Assembly (NCBI GenBank): GCA_016211185.1
Contig: JACQST010000059.1
Location: 1-33,993, forward strand
Direction: 5' to 3'
DNA: 33,993 nt
DNA from: Candidatus Woesearchaeota archaeon
GTDB lineage: Archaea; Nanobdellota; Nanobdellia; Woesearchaeales; UBA10216
The notes under the pieces were generated by a model, which worked only from the letters and a program-made list of their open reading frames with translations, did not search any database and was not told the DNA's origin. The translations under genes were made by a program, and so were the position numbers. Numbering within the stretch: the stretch's first letter is position 1; each line of letters begins with the position of its first letter. Shown one piece after another: positions 9,666 to 23,157 of the stretch.

Positions 9666-11588
9666 TCAAATCACAACTATGCCCTTGAGCTTGAACCCGT
9701 AAATAAAGATGCGGTCCCACAGAAAACTCTTCTTCCTTGTAACCCTCACAGAAAAACCAGCCTGCCTGAAAACCTGCTCAATCCTGGCGTCATCAGCAAG
9801 CCACTCAAGCGAGGGAAGAAGATGGAAGAAGTCAGAGTACTCCACAAAACAAATCCTGGCATCAGGAGACAAAACCCTGTACATGTCCTTCAGGATGCGC
9901 TGCATGTCATGCATGTATCCAAGCATGCCAACAGACACAACAACATCAGCCCTGTGCACATCAGGGTGGAGCCTGTAGAACTGCTCAGGGTCATGGATAA
10001 GCCTTGCCTCGCCATACACCCTGCCTTCAGTCTCCCATCTCTCCTTCTCAATCCGCTTCATGGTTATCTTCAGGTCATTCTTGGAGAAATGAGTCGCATA
10101 CACCGCGCCGTCAGGCCCCACAGCCCTCAACAGCGAAGTAGTTAATGTCCCGACGCCACAGCCAAACTCAATGACTGTCTTCCCATAAAGGTCACCGAGA
10201 AAGCTCATTATCTCCTTCCTAAGCCCCTTAGGGTAGCTGAACCTCTCTGTAAAGAAGCTGAGATAGGAAAAAAGGTCATTAATCTCTGTAATCATCTGAG
10301 GGTCATAATATATCTCAATCAGGAAATACAGGGGAATCCCCATGAGGATTAAGGAAATGCTCAGCTTCAGCAAAGTAGGGCCGTTCTGCGTTGTAAGAGT
10401 GCCGATAATTATTGCGGCCAGCAGGGCAACAGCCACCAGCACAGGACCAATTTTTCCGAAAGGAACCCTGTAGAGCCGCTCAACATGAGGGTCCTTGAGC
10501 CTCAGAATCGGAACAGTCAGGATAATAGGGATATACATGATAATGGCAAGAGGAATCAGGATGCTGAGCAGCACCTCATACTGGCCAAAGCCAAGCAGCA
10601 GAATAAGCATAGTTATCGCAGCCTGAAACATTATGGCCTTATAAGGAGTCTTGAACTTGGGGTGTATCTCGCTCAGCCTGCCAAACTGGAGCTTGTCCCG
10701 AGCCAAGGCAAGGGTCAACCGGGGTATAGTCACTATGCCTGAAGCAGCCGAGCCAAGAAGTGTGATAAAAATGCCCGCAATGATGATGCCCTCGCCAGCA
10801 GAGCCAAACAACACTTGGGCAAGAGCCTTGGTAGGCGAACTCATTGAAGCAAGAGCCTCATACCCGAACACCCCCAGGCTGACAAAAATGATTCCCGCGC
10901 CAAGCAGAGCAATAACAACAGTCCCGTTTACAATAGCCCGCGGAATAGTCCTCCTCGGGTCTTTTGTCTCCTCAGCCAGATAAGTCGCGGCCTCCCACCC
11001 AAAATAAGCCTCCATAAGGAAAAACATGCTCGTAAAAACAGTTGCAAAACCATGCGTGGCGAGTGGCACAAAATTCGCAGCAGCCACATTAAAGGAGCCC
11101 TTGCCAATCAGCGCCGCAAGCACAGCAACCATAACCACGGCAAAACATATCATTATGAAAGAAGTAGCCTCTATCCCGACGTAAGCTATAAGGTTCAGCA
11201 TAACTATGAGGATAAGGCTGAGAAGAAACTTCGTCGTGGTTAAAGAGTCAGGAATCAGGAGATTAATCGCGGCGACAATCATGACGACCACAGAAAGGTT
11301 GCCGACCAGCCACGCAGTCCACCCTATCATAAAAGACATGAACCGGCCATACGCCTGCTTGCTATACTCATACACGCCCCCGCTCTTGGGAAACATGCTC
11401 ACAAGCTCGCTAAAGCACATAGCTATGTAAATGGAAATCAGGGAAAGAATCACCCACGCAACCATTGAAAGGTTCCCGGAATACCTTGCGCCTATGCTAG
11501 GCCCGAAAAATATCGCTGTCCCTATAATGGAGCCTATGGACAGGCAAAGAATAGTCCAGTACCCAAAACCCCTCTTCAGCTCATACAT
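9666..11588 (-). CDS. APC-family amino acid permease fused to a C-terminal class I SAM methyltransferase
   Basis: N-terminal GYWTILCLSIGSIIGTAIFFGPSIGA (APC TM1) and multiple TM helices. The same ORF continues into YGKTVIEFGCGVGTLTTSLLRAVGPDGAVYATHFSKNDLKI (motif I) and a Rossmann-type MTase tail. Confidence 0.88.
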   Translation of the reverse strand: MYELKRGFGYWTILCLSIGSIIGTAIFFGPSIGARYSGNLSMVAWVILSLISIYIAMCFSELVSMFPKSGGVYEYSKQAYGRFMSFMIGWTAWLVGNLSVVVMIVAAINLLIPDSLTTTKFLLSLILIVMLNLIAYVGIEATSFIMICFAVVMVAVLAALIGKGSFNVAAANFVPLATHGFATVFTSMFFLMEAYFGWEAATYLAEETKDPRRTIPRAIVNGTVVIALLGAGIIFVSLGVFGYEALASMSSPTKALAQVLFGSAGEGIIIAGIFITLLGSAASGIVTIPRLTLALARDKLQFGRLSEIHPKFKTPYKAIMFQAAITMLILLLGFGQYEVLLSILIPLAIIMYIPIILTVPILRLKDPHVERLYRVPFGKIGPVLVAVALLAAIIIGTLTTQNGPTLLKLSISLILMGIPLYFLIEIYYDPQMITEINDLFSYLSFFTERFSYPKGLRKEIMSFLGDLYGKTVIEFGCGVGTLTTSLLRAVGPDGAVYATHFSKNDLKITMKRIEKERWETEGRVYGEARLIHDPEQFYRLHPDVHRADVVVSVGMLGYMHDMQRILKDMYRVLSPDARICFVEYSDFFHLLPSLEWLADDARIEQVFRQAGFSVRVTRKKSFLWDRIFIYGFKLKGIVVI

Positions 11589-16083: not shown

Positions 16084-16440
16084 ATGGGCTTCTTTGACAA
16101 AGTCATGTTCTGGAAAAAAAAGGACGACCTGGCACTTGACGGCAACCTTGCAACAGGAATGGACACCCAAAACCCGTTCCCTGCACAAAACCAGTTCCAG
16201 CCAGCACAGCAGCAGCCATTCCAGCAGCAGGGCTTCTACGGCCAAGGGATGCAGCAGGTGCAGCCCCCACAGATGGATGCCTTCCAAAGCTCAAGCGCAT
16301 ACGCAGCAAGCAGACAGCTTGAAGTGGTATCAGCAAAGCTTGACGCGCTCAAGGCAGCCATGGACTCGATGAGCCAGCGCCTCTCAAACATAGAAAGGGC
16401 ATTCCAAGACGATTTCTACAGGAAACGGGGAGGATGGTAA
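16084..16440 (+). CDS. Small Q-rich linker/coiled-coil protein
   Basis: NQFQPAQQQPFQQQGFYGQGMQQVQPPQM, then C-terminal helix QLEVVSAKLDALKAAMDSMSQRLSNIERAF. Confidence 0.65.
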   Translation: MGFFDKVMFWKKKDDLALDGNLATGMDTQNPFPAQNQFQPAQQQPFQQQGFYGQGMQQVQPPQMDAFQSSSAYAASRQLEVVSAKLDALKAAMDSMSQRLSNIERAFQDDFYRKRGGW

Positions 16441-16877
16441 AAACAAGAAAACCAGAACCAGACCTGCTGCTCACAACAATAGCTGTGCTTGCTTTTGACA
16501 GGCTCACGAAGCACTACGCACAAAACCTAACCGAGCCAATAAGCATAACACCACTGCTAAGCATAAGCCTCGTAAGAAACACAGGAGCAGCATTCGGAAT
16601 ACTCCCCGGAACATCACTCATACTGGCTGCAATAGGCACAGCAGTAATAGCAGCAATCCTACTCAGCTACAGAAAGCTGTCTGCGACCCGGAAAACCCGT
16701 ATAGCAACAGGACTCATACTGGCAGGCACAACAGGAAACCTCATCGACAGGCTCCTCCTTGGATACGTAATAGACTTCATAGACCCAAGCTTCTGGCCCG
16801 CATTCAATGTTGCGGATGCTGCACTGACTGTTGGAGCTGCAATCCTCCTAATCCACATCTACACAAAAAAGAACTAG
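16434..16877 (+). CDS. lspA: Lipoprotein signal peptidase (signal peptidase II)
   Basis: DRLTKHYA, VRNTGAAFGIL, GTTGNLIDRLLLGYVIDFIDPSFWPAFNVADAAL. Conserved LspA boxes including the two catalytic Asp positions. Confidence 0.92.
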   Translation: MVKTRKPEPDLLLTTIAVLAFDRLTKHYAQNLTEPISITPLLSISLVRNTGAAFGILPGTSLILAAIGTAVIAAILLSYRKLSATRKTRIATGLILAGTTGNLIDRLLLGYVIDFIDPSFWPAFNVADAALTVGAAILLIHIYTKKN

Positions 16878-18261: not shown

Positions 18262-18984
18262 TCAGGCAACTTGCGTATATAAAGGATAAGGGTGCTTCGT
18301 TGCAGCCCTCTGCTCCGGGCCAAGGTTCCTCATTAGCTCCTCTATGTTAATTACAGGCCTGCTGAACTTGTCGTAGTCCTCCATCATCCTTGGGCAAGCA
18401 GTGTTGACATAACACTCAATGAACGGAAAGTTCTGAAGCTCAGTGAAATCAACAGTGTCAGAAACCAGATAGTAGTAGTTCTTGTCAGGGTAAATGCGCT
18501 TCAGAGCCTGCCCTGCCTTCAAGTGCAGCTGGCCAGGCTTGGTAGAGACCAGTATCCCTATCTCTGTTGAGTGCAGAAACTTGGCGTATGCGGCCTTTAT
18601 CTTTCTTTGCTCCTCCTCAGCCTCATATGGGTCAAGCCTGTAGAAGTGCCTGTTGACAGGGTCAAAGACAAAAAGCTCCTTCCCCGACGCCAAAGTGCCC
18701 CTCGGGTGAAACCTCCCGGTCCCGATGAAGAGAACCGCTTCGATATCCGAATCAGTGTTAGCTGGAAAGTCGCAGCCATACATCTGGCCGGCATGCTTTG
18801 AGTGGAAGCCCTTAATTATAGTTACCCTCTTACCGGCGGCCTCAAGCTGCGTCCTCACATCCTCCAGCCTGTGAAGGTGCTGGATATTAGTAACGAGCCC
18901 AATACTCATGGGAAGCTGCGCAACATGAGCAGCCTCAAGAAGAATCTCAGCATCAACCTTTGCCTCAATAAAGAACGTTTTCAT
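18262..18984 (-). CDS. Diphthamide synthase subunit Dph2-like protein, short form
   Basis: IGLVTNIQHLHRLEDVRTQLEAAG, GQMYGCDF, FIGTGRFHPRGTLASG, TKPGQ and YVNTACPRM are Dph2 motifs. Only 240 aa. Confidence 0.85.
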   Translation of the reverse strand: MKTFFIEAKVDAEILLEAAHVAQLPMSIGLVTNIQHLHRLEDVRTQLEAAGKRVTIIKGFHSKHAGQMYGCDFPANTDSDIEAVLFIGTGRFHPRGTLASGKELFVFDPVNRHFYRLDPYEAEEEQRKIKAAYAKFLHSTEIGILVSTKPGQLHLKAGQALKRIYPDKNYYYLVSDTVDFTELQNFPFIECYVNTACPRMMEDYDKFSRPVINIEELMRNLGPEQRAATKHPYPLYTQVA

Positions 18985-21732: not shown

Positions 21733-23157
21733 TTAGTATGTGGTGTTTATCTGGTCCTGCTCATACTTCAAGCCTTTTTTCAGGGCAAGCTCTGCCCTCA
21801 TCAGCTCCTGGCCGATGTAGATGGCATGGCTGATGTCGCTGGCCTTCTGCTCCAGCACAATCCACCTTGAAGCCTCCTGAGAACTCGCTGCTAAGAACTC
21901 CTCAAGCCTCTGGCCATCAGGCGAAAGATGAGTTACCTTTATCCTGCCGCCCTCAACTGATATGTGAATGTTTCCCCTCGGGTCAAGGTTTCCAGTGCTC
22001 CTTGGAAGCTCAAAAGAAATGTTCTTATCCAAAGGATACTCCCGAAGGACTTCCTGCGCCTGCCTGAAATGCCTCTCATAAACATGCGCACTGGCAGAAA
22101 TCATGATGGTTTCGCCGAGCTCTTTTCCTGTCTCTGCGCATAACTGCTTCTGAAGCTTCCTTAAAGCATAAGCGTTCTTAGGCCACGCACCATAGATGTC
22201 GTTGCTCCTCAAATAAGCAATCAGGTAAAGCTTATCGCCCTGAATTATCGCCTGCACAAGGTTAAGGCACGGCGGGTTAATGCTGTCCATATCCAAGTTG
22301 ACGTCCCAAGTGACAGCAACAGCCCTCCTGGTATGGGGATGCTCATTAAGCTTCCGGGCAATTTTACTAATCTGGTCAACCCCCTTATGAGACCTTAGCC
22401 TCTGGCCATAAGTATATGTGATTTCAGGAACCTTCTGGTCAGTAAGAACCTGTGGATAATACTCCTCAAGCTCCTCCTCCGGAAAAGCAAAATAGGGCTT
22501 CCATTGGGGCTTGTCAGGGTCCTCATGAGTAATTATGGTTGAAAGGCAGATAATCTCCTTTTGCTTCTCCTCGTGCTGAGACTCCTTGAGAGCTCCGAAC
22601 TTCATAATCGTGCTTAGAGCCTGAAGCCATGCCTCGCCAATTGTCCTTGCCCGAATCTTGAAAACAGGGTCAGTGGGGAAATTCATCGGAACCTCAACCC
22701 TCGCCTCAGGAAATGACTCAGGGCTCCCGTAGCCCGTCTTTAAAGGCAGCCCTGCAATAACCTGCTTCAAGACGCTGTAGTCTGTAACGTTCCTGGCGTC
22801 AATGACATCGACATTCTTCCTGAAGCTCTCAACAGCATCCAAAGGAATCTCATTATCCACCCGCGCACCACTCACTCCCCTTACCGAACGTTCATCATCC
22901 ACCCCTTTTTCCTTTAGGCTGATAAGTGCCTGTCCGCTCTGGCTCCTGTCCTGGCCGCACACAACTATGTAACGGATGTTCTTGTTGAAAAGGCAGTACC
23001 TGAGAACAGTGTTAAGCCCGGCATCCTTTGAATAAAGCTGGCCGATAACCGCATAGCTGTCTCTGTCCAGATGCCTCTCAACAATCTCAAGCGGAGTCCA
23101 CAAAGTGCAGACTGCAACATTACTCTTCTCGTTACCAAGCTTCACAGACTGTTTCAT
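21733..23157 (-). CDS. thyA: Thymidylate synthase (ThyA) flanked by MtrA/DUF4346-like N- and C-terminal segments
   Basis: TS core ITYTYGQRLR...RRAVAVTWDVNLD...NPPCLNLVQAIIQGDKLYLIAYLRSNDIYGAWPKN. N-terminal NVAVCTLWTPLEIVE...AVIGQLYSKDAGLNTVLRYCLFNKNIRYIVVCGQDRSQSGQALISL. C-terminal DISHAIYIGQELMRAELALKKGLKYEQD. Confidence 0.88.
   Translation of the reverse strand: MKQSVKLGNEKSNVAVCTLWTPLEIVERHLDRDSYAVIGQLYSKDAGLNTVLRYCLFNKNIRYIVVCGQDRSQSGQALISLKEKGVDDERSVRGVSGARVDNEIPLDAVESFRKNVDVIDARNVTDYSVLKQVIAGLPLKTGYGSPESFPEARVEVPMNFPTDPVFKIRARTIGEAWLQALSTIMKFGALKESQHEEKQKEIICLSTIITHEDPDKPQWKPYFAFPEEELEEYYPQVLTDQKVPEITYTYGQRLRSHKGVDQISKIARKLNEHPHTRRAVAVTWDVNLDMDSINPPCLNLVQAIIQGDKLYLIAYLRSNDIYGAWPKNAYALRKLQKQLCAETGKELGETIMISASAHVYERHFRQAQEVLREYPLDKNISFELPRSTGNLDPRGNIHISVEGGRIKVTHLSPDGQRLEEFLAASSQEASRWIVLEQKASDISHAIYIGQELMRAELALKKGLKYEQDQINTTY

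Follow-up and report, generated by a model that had tools for sequence, protein, structure and literature searches.

Can an amino acid permease and a methyltransferase be a single protein, and what might such a protein do? The question is raised by a stretch of 33,993 nucleotides from a Candidatus Woesearchaeota archaeon (the whole of this stretch is called here the window), in which one reading frame appeared to join the two. To our knowledge, a permease of the amino acid type that shares one chain with a SAM-binding methyltransferase (MTase) has not been described as a conserved family, and our literature searches, made in open-licence full texts, returned nothing relevant on a permease-methyltransferase fusion. 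The protein encoded in the window consists of an SLC7-like APC core and a C-terminal class I MTase domain, and an acidic residue replaces the aromatic thin gate of the transporter. One molecule may thus tie uptake to methylation (or to the sensing of a methyl donor), and its hosts are small-genome (DPANN-like) archaea, which probably rely on their environment for many metabolites.

The fusion gene and its spread

The gene and its parts were located in the window as follows.

9666..11588, minus strand: complete APC permease-class I methyltransferase fusion gene, 640 aa, ATG start
10380..11567, minus strand: APC permease half, residues 8-403, about 12 TM helices (Pfam, profile and fold matches, hydropathy)
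10224..10301, minus strand: junction or linker, residues ~430-455 (gap between Pfam matches; AF2 confidence falls beyond residue ~430)
9669..10223, minus strand: class I SAM-methyltransferase half, residues ~456-640 (Pfam Methyltransf_12/23, Ubie)

The initial annotation had described one unbroken ORF with both domains, and this is borne out by the ORF itself and by Pfam matches on its two halves. The coordinates given there were exact, but no strand was named, and the ORF lies on the minus strand; the plus-strand reading of the same frame at 9666-11588 contains several stops. The permease half matches PF13520 (AA_permease_2) over residues 8-403 (E=8.5e-49, 167 bits with a cut-off of 27), and it is the sole PF13520 permease found in this genome (1.0 Mb, 91% complete, 84 contigs). 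Among the MTase models the best match is Methyltransf_12 (residues 473-578, E=4.7e-12); Methyltransf_23, Ubie_methyltran and others also pass their cut-offs, and the models span residues ~456-591. Hydropathy gives 12 TM segments in the permease half, in line with the approximately 12 hydrophobic segments counted earlier, and the linker agrees with the junction that had been placed at about 10200-10320. The AF2 model is confident for the permease half and for no other part: confidence drops after residue ~430, and the MTase half modelled without homologues has a pLDDT of 38.7.

The full-protein query, searched against 59 genomes, found matches in 44 of them, most of which cover the whole chain with no stop in between. 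When 378 genomes of the class and 279 of the phylum were scanned with a profile, complete fusions turned up in over 30 families of the window's order and, outside the order but within the class, in families f68, f70, f77, f80 and f82. The 89 full-length fusions taken from fetched loci make up our alignment set, and where a pairwise comparison with the window's protein was made, identity is 30-64%. As two orthologues (L071 and L072, 62-65% identity) have the same junction, an assembly error at this place is very unlikely. Moreover, because the stop-free architecture recurs in dozens of other genomes, the fusion is neither a chance event nor a missed stop or frameshift, and the possibility raised earlier that homologues are always two genes fails, as they are almost always fused. 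We thus reject the reading that an assembly or frameshift artefact merged two adjacent genes: the assembly is indeed fragmented (84 contigs), but with an identical stop-free junction in dozens of other genomes this explanation is practically out of the question.

A profile built solely from the fused MTases of the order detected those from outside the order at 9e-39 to 7e-54 and the most divergent one (L108) at 6.5e-28, and it detected other methyltransferases in the same loci at 1.4e-9 at best. The fused MTases are one family, and as these scores argue against separate fusion origins, the simplest reading of the sequences is one ancient fusion inherited mainly vertically. Trees of the two halves have no conflicting split at a support of at least 0.99, and 12 conflicting split pairs at a support of at least 0.95, several of which involve neighbouring f45 paralogues; in f45, an exchange of the MTase between paralogue copies is possible.

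The permease half and its altered gate

The permease half resembles the SLC7-type transporters BasC, LAT1, GkApcT and AdiC (profile E to 1.7e-51, Foldseek E 1.8e-20), and a profile match over the 12-TM core places it in the APC superfamily. The NCBIfam transporter models, TIGR00909 included, score below their curated cut-offs (207 bits at best, with 557 needed), and as these best matches fall so far short, no known transporter subfamily is indicated. In BasC, F199 is the external thin gate, a position in TM6a that is bulky and usually aromatic in LATs and CATs, and the TM5 Lys (BasC K154) is conserved in every LAT and CAT (PMC8399266). Mutation of K154 nearly abolishes transport by BasC, and the TM7 Tyr (BasC Y236) is fully conserved in LATs (PMC6472337). 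All three of these SLC7 hallmarks, the TM5 Lys, the aromatic TM6a gate and the TM7 Tyr, are absent from the window's protein, whose residues 193, 153 and 230 were placed on BasC F199, K154 and Y236 by HMMER alignment.

11517..11522, minus strand: TM1 unwound substrate-binding segment, G23-T24 of G(T/S)G; G in 86/89 and T/S in 89/89 fusions
11130..11132, minus strand: M153, TM5 Lys position of LATs/CATs (BasC K154); Lys in 0/89 fusions
11010..11012, minus strand: E193, TM6 thin-gate position (BasC F199 / AdiC W202); acidic in 87/89 fusions
10899..10901, minus strand: G230, TM7 Tyr position (BasC Y236); small residues in fusions

For comparison we used 73 stand-alone APCs; the same class contributed 44 and other genomes 29. 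The thin-gate position, E or D in 87 of the 89 fusions, is never acidic in the stand-alone proteins (0/73), where it is Phe in 67. At the position equivalent to K154, the fusions never have Lys and mostly have Thr (Met in the window), and most of the stand-alone APCs have Glu or Lys; at the Y236 equivalent, 71 of the 73 have Tyr, and the fusions have small residues (Gly230 in the window). The sole apparent stand-alone protein with a gate Glu (L118|11) actually has an MTase-like tail broken by masked sequence, and therefore the gate change and the fusion go together. This substitution accompanying the fusion provides a precise, testable link between the two halves.

Taken as a whole, the permease half shares fold and sequence with SLC7/LAT-CAT-like APCs (BasC, GkApcT, AdiC, LAT1; TC 2.A.3), and it has the TM1 G(T/S)G and TM6 GW(E/D) elements in common with them. 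Unlike these transporters, the fusions have an acidic thin gate, have lost both the TM5 Lys and the TM7 Tyr, and bear an obligate C-terminal MTase domain. Since the fusions retain E199, W198 and the G(T/S)G motif of TM1, they probably still bind a substrate, though in a changed manner, and the extra gate acid together with the absent TM5 Lys suggests a cationic substrate. It needs to be mentioned that the class's stand-alone APCs (e.g. L149:8793-10190) differ from LATs and CATs, too, at the TM5 Na2-like position, where Glu replaces Lys in 33 of 44.

The methyltransferase half and its SAM site

Three features of the MTase half were placed in the window as follows.

10140..10175, minus strand: SAM motif I, VIEFGCGVGTLT, residues 472-483; intact in 69/89 fusions
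10089..10091, minus strand: H500, usual ribose-binding acid position; D/E in 53/89 relatives, His in 14/15 of the window's own family
9990..9992, minus strand: D533, acidic residue following beta3, part of the family motif HD..h..RvHP; Asp in 58/89 and Glu in 11/89 fusions

Motif I of the window's protein reads EFGCGVG at residues 474-480, in agreement with D/E-x-G-x-G-x-G, and we scored the motif as intact when an acid was found at 474 together with G476 and G480. Out of the 69 fusions with an intact motif, 45 also keep the ribose-binding acid, and D533 is invariant in a 20-row MTase alignment. In the window's protein the acid at the end of beta2, which binds the SAM ribose, is absent and His500 takes its place; throughout the window's own family this acid is replaced, by His in 14 of the 15 aligned members. 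Conservation in this family is 0.92 for motif I, 0.71 for the whole MTase half and 0.67 for the permease. As none of the other measured stretches is as well conserved as motif I, even though the ribose acid has been replaced, ligand binding by the MTase half is probably under selection there.

In the other 20 of the 89 fusions motif I is broken and the MTase domain is still kept. The motif has become NSPMG in a clade with a voltage-sensor-like domain and ILNIGASSGELAK in family f80, and in L116 the motif I segment is missing altogether but the domain keeps its C-terminal part. As far as the sequences tell, an MTase domain can outlive its SAM site, and these 20 cases point to a regulatory or structural role of the domain, at least in the proteins concerned.

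Class I SAM methyltransferases (Methyltransf_12/23, UbiE-like enzymes, phosphoethanolamine N-MTs and KsgA-like proteins) have motif I and the Rossmann-type succession of motifs in common with the fused domain. In contrast to them, the fused MTase is membrane-tethered, its HD..H..RvHP loop is family-specific and its similarity to solved enzymes is low, the solved relatives being PMT, AS3MT and KsgA-like proteins with weak, generic PDB matches. A stand-alone MTase of the fusion family was also found: in genome G373, a 195-aa protein with motif I intact (L112:9039-9626, plus strand), convergent with rpS7, seems to have lost its permease half.

What the two halves may do together

The reading which we tentatively place first is that of a two-module membrane protein performing SAM-dependent methylation of a cationic solute handled by the permease. 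Because both termini should be cytosolic by homology with BasC and AdiC, the MTase half would sit at the inner mouth of the pore, and its conserved motif I suggests that it would bind SAM. Pore and MTase would then share one solute. The likeliest candidate is an amine or amino acid with a positive charge, which the two acids E193 and E199 would favour; it would enter, be methylated on leaving the inner gate, and in this way be trapped or turned to use. Several clades of paralogues would have lost the SAM site later, and the domain would have stayed on in a structural or regulatory capacity.

On one hand, coupled methylation is favoured by the preservation of the fusion across more than 30 families, by the acidic gate with its accompanying loss of Lys and Tyr, by motif I, which is intact in most fusions and strongly conserved within the family of the window's protein, and by the stand-alone MTase of G373, which is what one would expect of a domain with an activity of its own. 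Bacterial-type SAM synthetase is also commoner in fusion-bearing relatives (36/38) than in others (14/21; p=0.007, and p=0.12 outside the window's own family). On the other hand, it is weakened by the His at the ribose position, by the persistence of the domain where motif I is broken and by the generic PDB matches, and the MTase of G373 suggests that the substrate need not come via the permease. The initial annotation had suggested that an amine or amino acid could be modified in step with its import; this idea is one of two near-equal candidates and is helped by the gate Glu, but the 20 broken SAM motifs point to a regulatory or structural role, at least in those proteins.

Gene context, which points to no pathway, likewise counts against coupled methylation. 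The recurrent neighbours are the rpS7/EF-2 region, convergent with the fusion (rpS7 in 25 loci), a divergent and close Dph2-like gene in 21 related loci and a probable valyl-tRNA synthetase, the last in a single family outside the order. Upstream of the window's fusion gene is an HhH-GPD glycosylase gene, and just downstream on the same strand is a 215-aa ORF. The gene content (NucS, an archaeal-type L10 and a diphthamide-synthesis protein), taken with the size of the genome, suggests a DPANN archaeon. No pathway partner naming the substrate was found among the neighbours in the window and related loci; we read these housekeeping genes as inherited gene order and reject an operon or pathway explanation.

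Nearly as likely, and left near-equal to coupled methylation by the sequence data, is that the C-terminal domain is a SAM/SAH-sensing regulatory module which opens or closes the permease and methylates no solute. Such a role would be consistent with the survival of the domain in several clades that have lost the SAM motif, even in L116 without the segment bearing it, and with the window's own family, which keeps motif I while the ribose acid is replaced. However, a broken site loses SAM sensing too, and degeneration therefore does not favour a sensor over an enzyme in those clades; the persistence of an intact stand-alone MTase in G373 also counts against a sensor.

The voltage-sensor-like domain of one clade speaks for sensing as well, since it indicates that the family gathers channel-type control modules. 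In 11 paralogues, ~150 extra N-terminal residues contain an S4-like Arg repeat, RALRGVRIIARIVKFARFARYGRLLRLLRF. One of them is the following:

L090:8119-10452, plus strand: VSD-like-APC-MTase paralogue with an S1-S4-like N-terminus

The others are in L092, L093, L095, L097, L099, L101, L065, L066, L137 and L143. The extension matches Ion_trans weakly and over the S1-S4 part only (best 5e-5; 23 bits with a gathering threshold of 25), and its best solved match is KvAP (E=5e-4). In this clade, whose SAM motif is broken, conservation is 0.84 for the permease, 0.58 for the MTase half and 0.61 for motif I, the reverse of the window's own family. A free-standing homologue of the domain lies beside other fusion genes in 9 loci (hhalign probability 99%). 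The window's protein has no voltage-sensor domain, as its ORF begins at the permease without an N-terminal extension.

A further argument for sensing is the architecture of SLC9C1, a Na+/H+ exchanger whose solute carrier part is combined with a voltage sensor and with a domain that binds cyclic nucleotides (PMC6052114, PMC10620091). It likewise unites a secondary transporter with a cytosolic nucleotide-type domain; the resemblance is one of outline, as transporter fold and domain order differ, a cyclic-nucleotide-binding domain stands where the fusions have an MTase fold, and among the fusions a voltage-sensor-like domain is seen in one paralogue clade only. This clade is a possible prokaryotic parallel to SLC9C1, and we consider it rather unlikely, though worth naming, that the fusions are a prokaryotic family of secondary transporters gated by intracellular SAM/SAH and, in this clade, by membrane voltage as well, an SLC9C1-like tripartite design of independent origin on an APC core. 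Two other arrangements were observed: L090:6195-13632 holds three fusion copies (626, 777 and 709 aa) within 7.5 kb, with a stand-alone VSD-like gene on the opposite strand between them, and L058:9266-11827 (plus strand) encodes a fusion with a ~220-aa C-terminal extension matching DUF3108, 853 aa in total.

The remaining readings are less likely than coupled methylation or sensing. The MTase might act on another inner-face target, such as a lipid headgroup or a membrane protein, with the permease being mainly an anchor or an independent transporter. The stand-alone MTase of G373 and a weak, generic likeness to phosphoethanolamine N-methyltransferases fit this idea; however, the gate-Glu permease occurs only with an MTase tail and its gate and TM1 are strongly conserved, so that the permease should be more than an anchor. 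Lipid genes are missing from the context, and the lipid or headgroup modification suggested in the initial annotation found no specific support. We thus regard another target as improbable.

A transceptor is about equally doubtful. It might be suggested by the loss of the residues equivalent to K154 and Y236, on which the LAT transport cycle depends. Ssy1, a yeast amino acid receptor evolved from transporters (PMC12958826), likewise has a core of the amino-acid-transporter type, which in the fusions may serve signalling and not transport; the comparison is an analogy only. Conservation of the TM1 and TM6 substrate elements in the fusions argues against a receptor role. AdiC-type antiporters probably lack the TM5 Lys too, which also counts against it, and Ssy1, unlike the fusions, is not known to have an MTase domain.

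Finally, the permease could be a carrier of SAM (or SAM/SAH), with the MTase fold serving it as a docking or receiving domain. Being a cationic amino acid, SAM is compatible with the gate Glu, and genome G028, a single contig rated 100% complete, has the fusion and neither type of SAM synthetase. Yet bacterial-type SAM synthetase (MetK) is present in 50 of the 59 genomes searched, including the window's own, and most synthetase-less genomes are also without the fusion, making a SAM carrier very unlikely. The archaeal-type enzyme was found in only one of the 59 genomes (G029) and is absent from that of the window. As the window's organism can make SAM by means of the bacterial-type synthetase, SAM import is not a general explanation, and we reject SAM auxotrophy as a general cause of the fusion.

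Three other genes of the window deserve mention. A short Dph2-like diphthamide-synthesis protein of 240 aa (18262-18984, minus strand) matches its profile over positions 67-295 only. At 16434-16877 (plus strand), this apparently archaeal genome encodes a signal peptidase II (Peptidase_A8, E=4.5e-34), and relatives of this gene lie near the fusion in 10 loci. A single ORF at 21733-23157 (minus strand) combines MtrA-like, thymidylate-synthase and PterinBD-DUF4346 domains.
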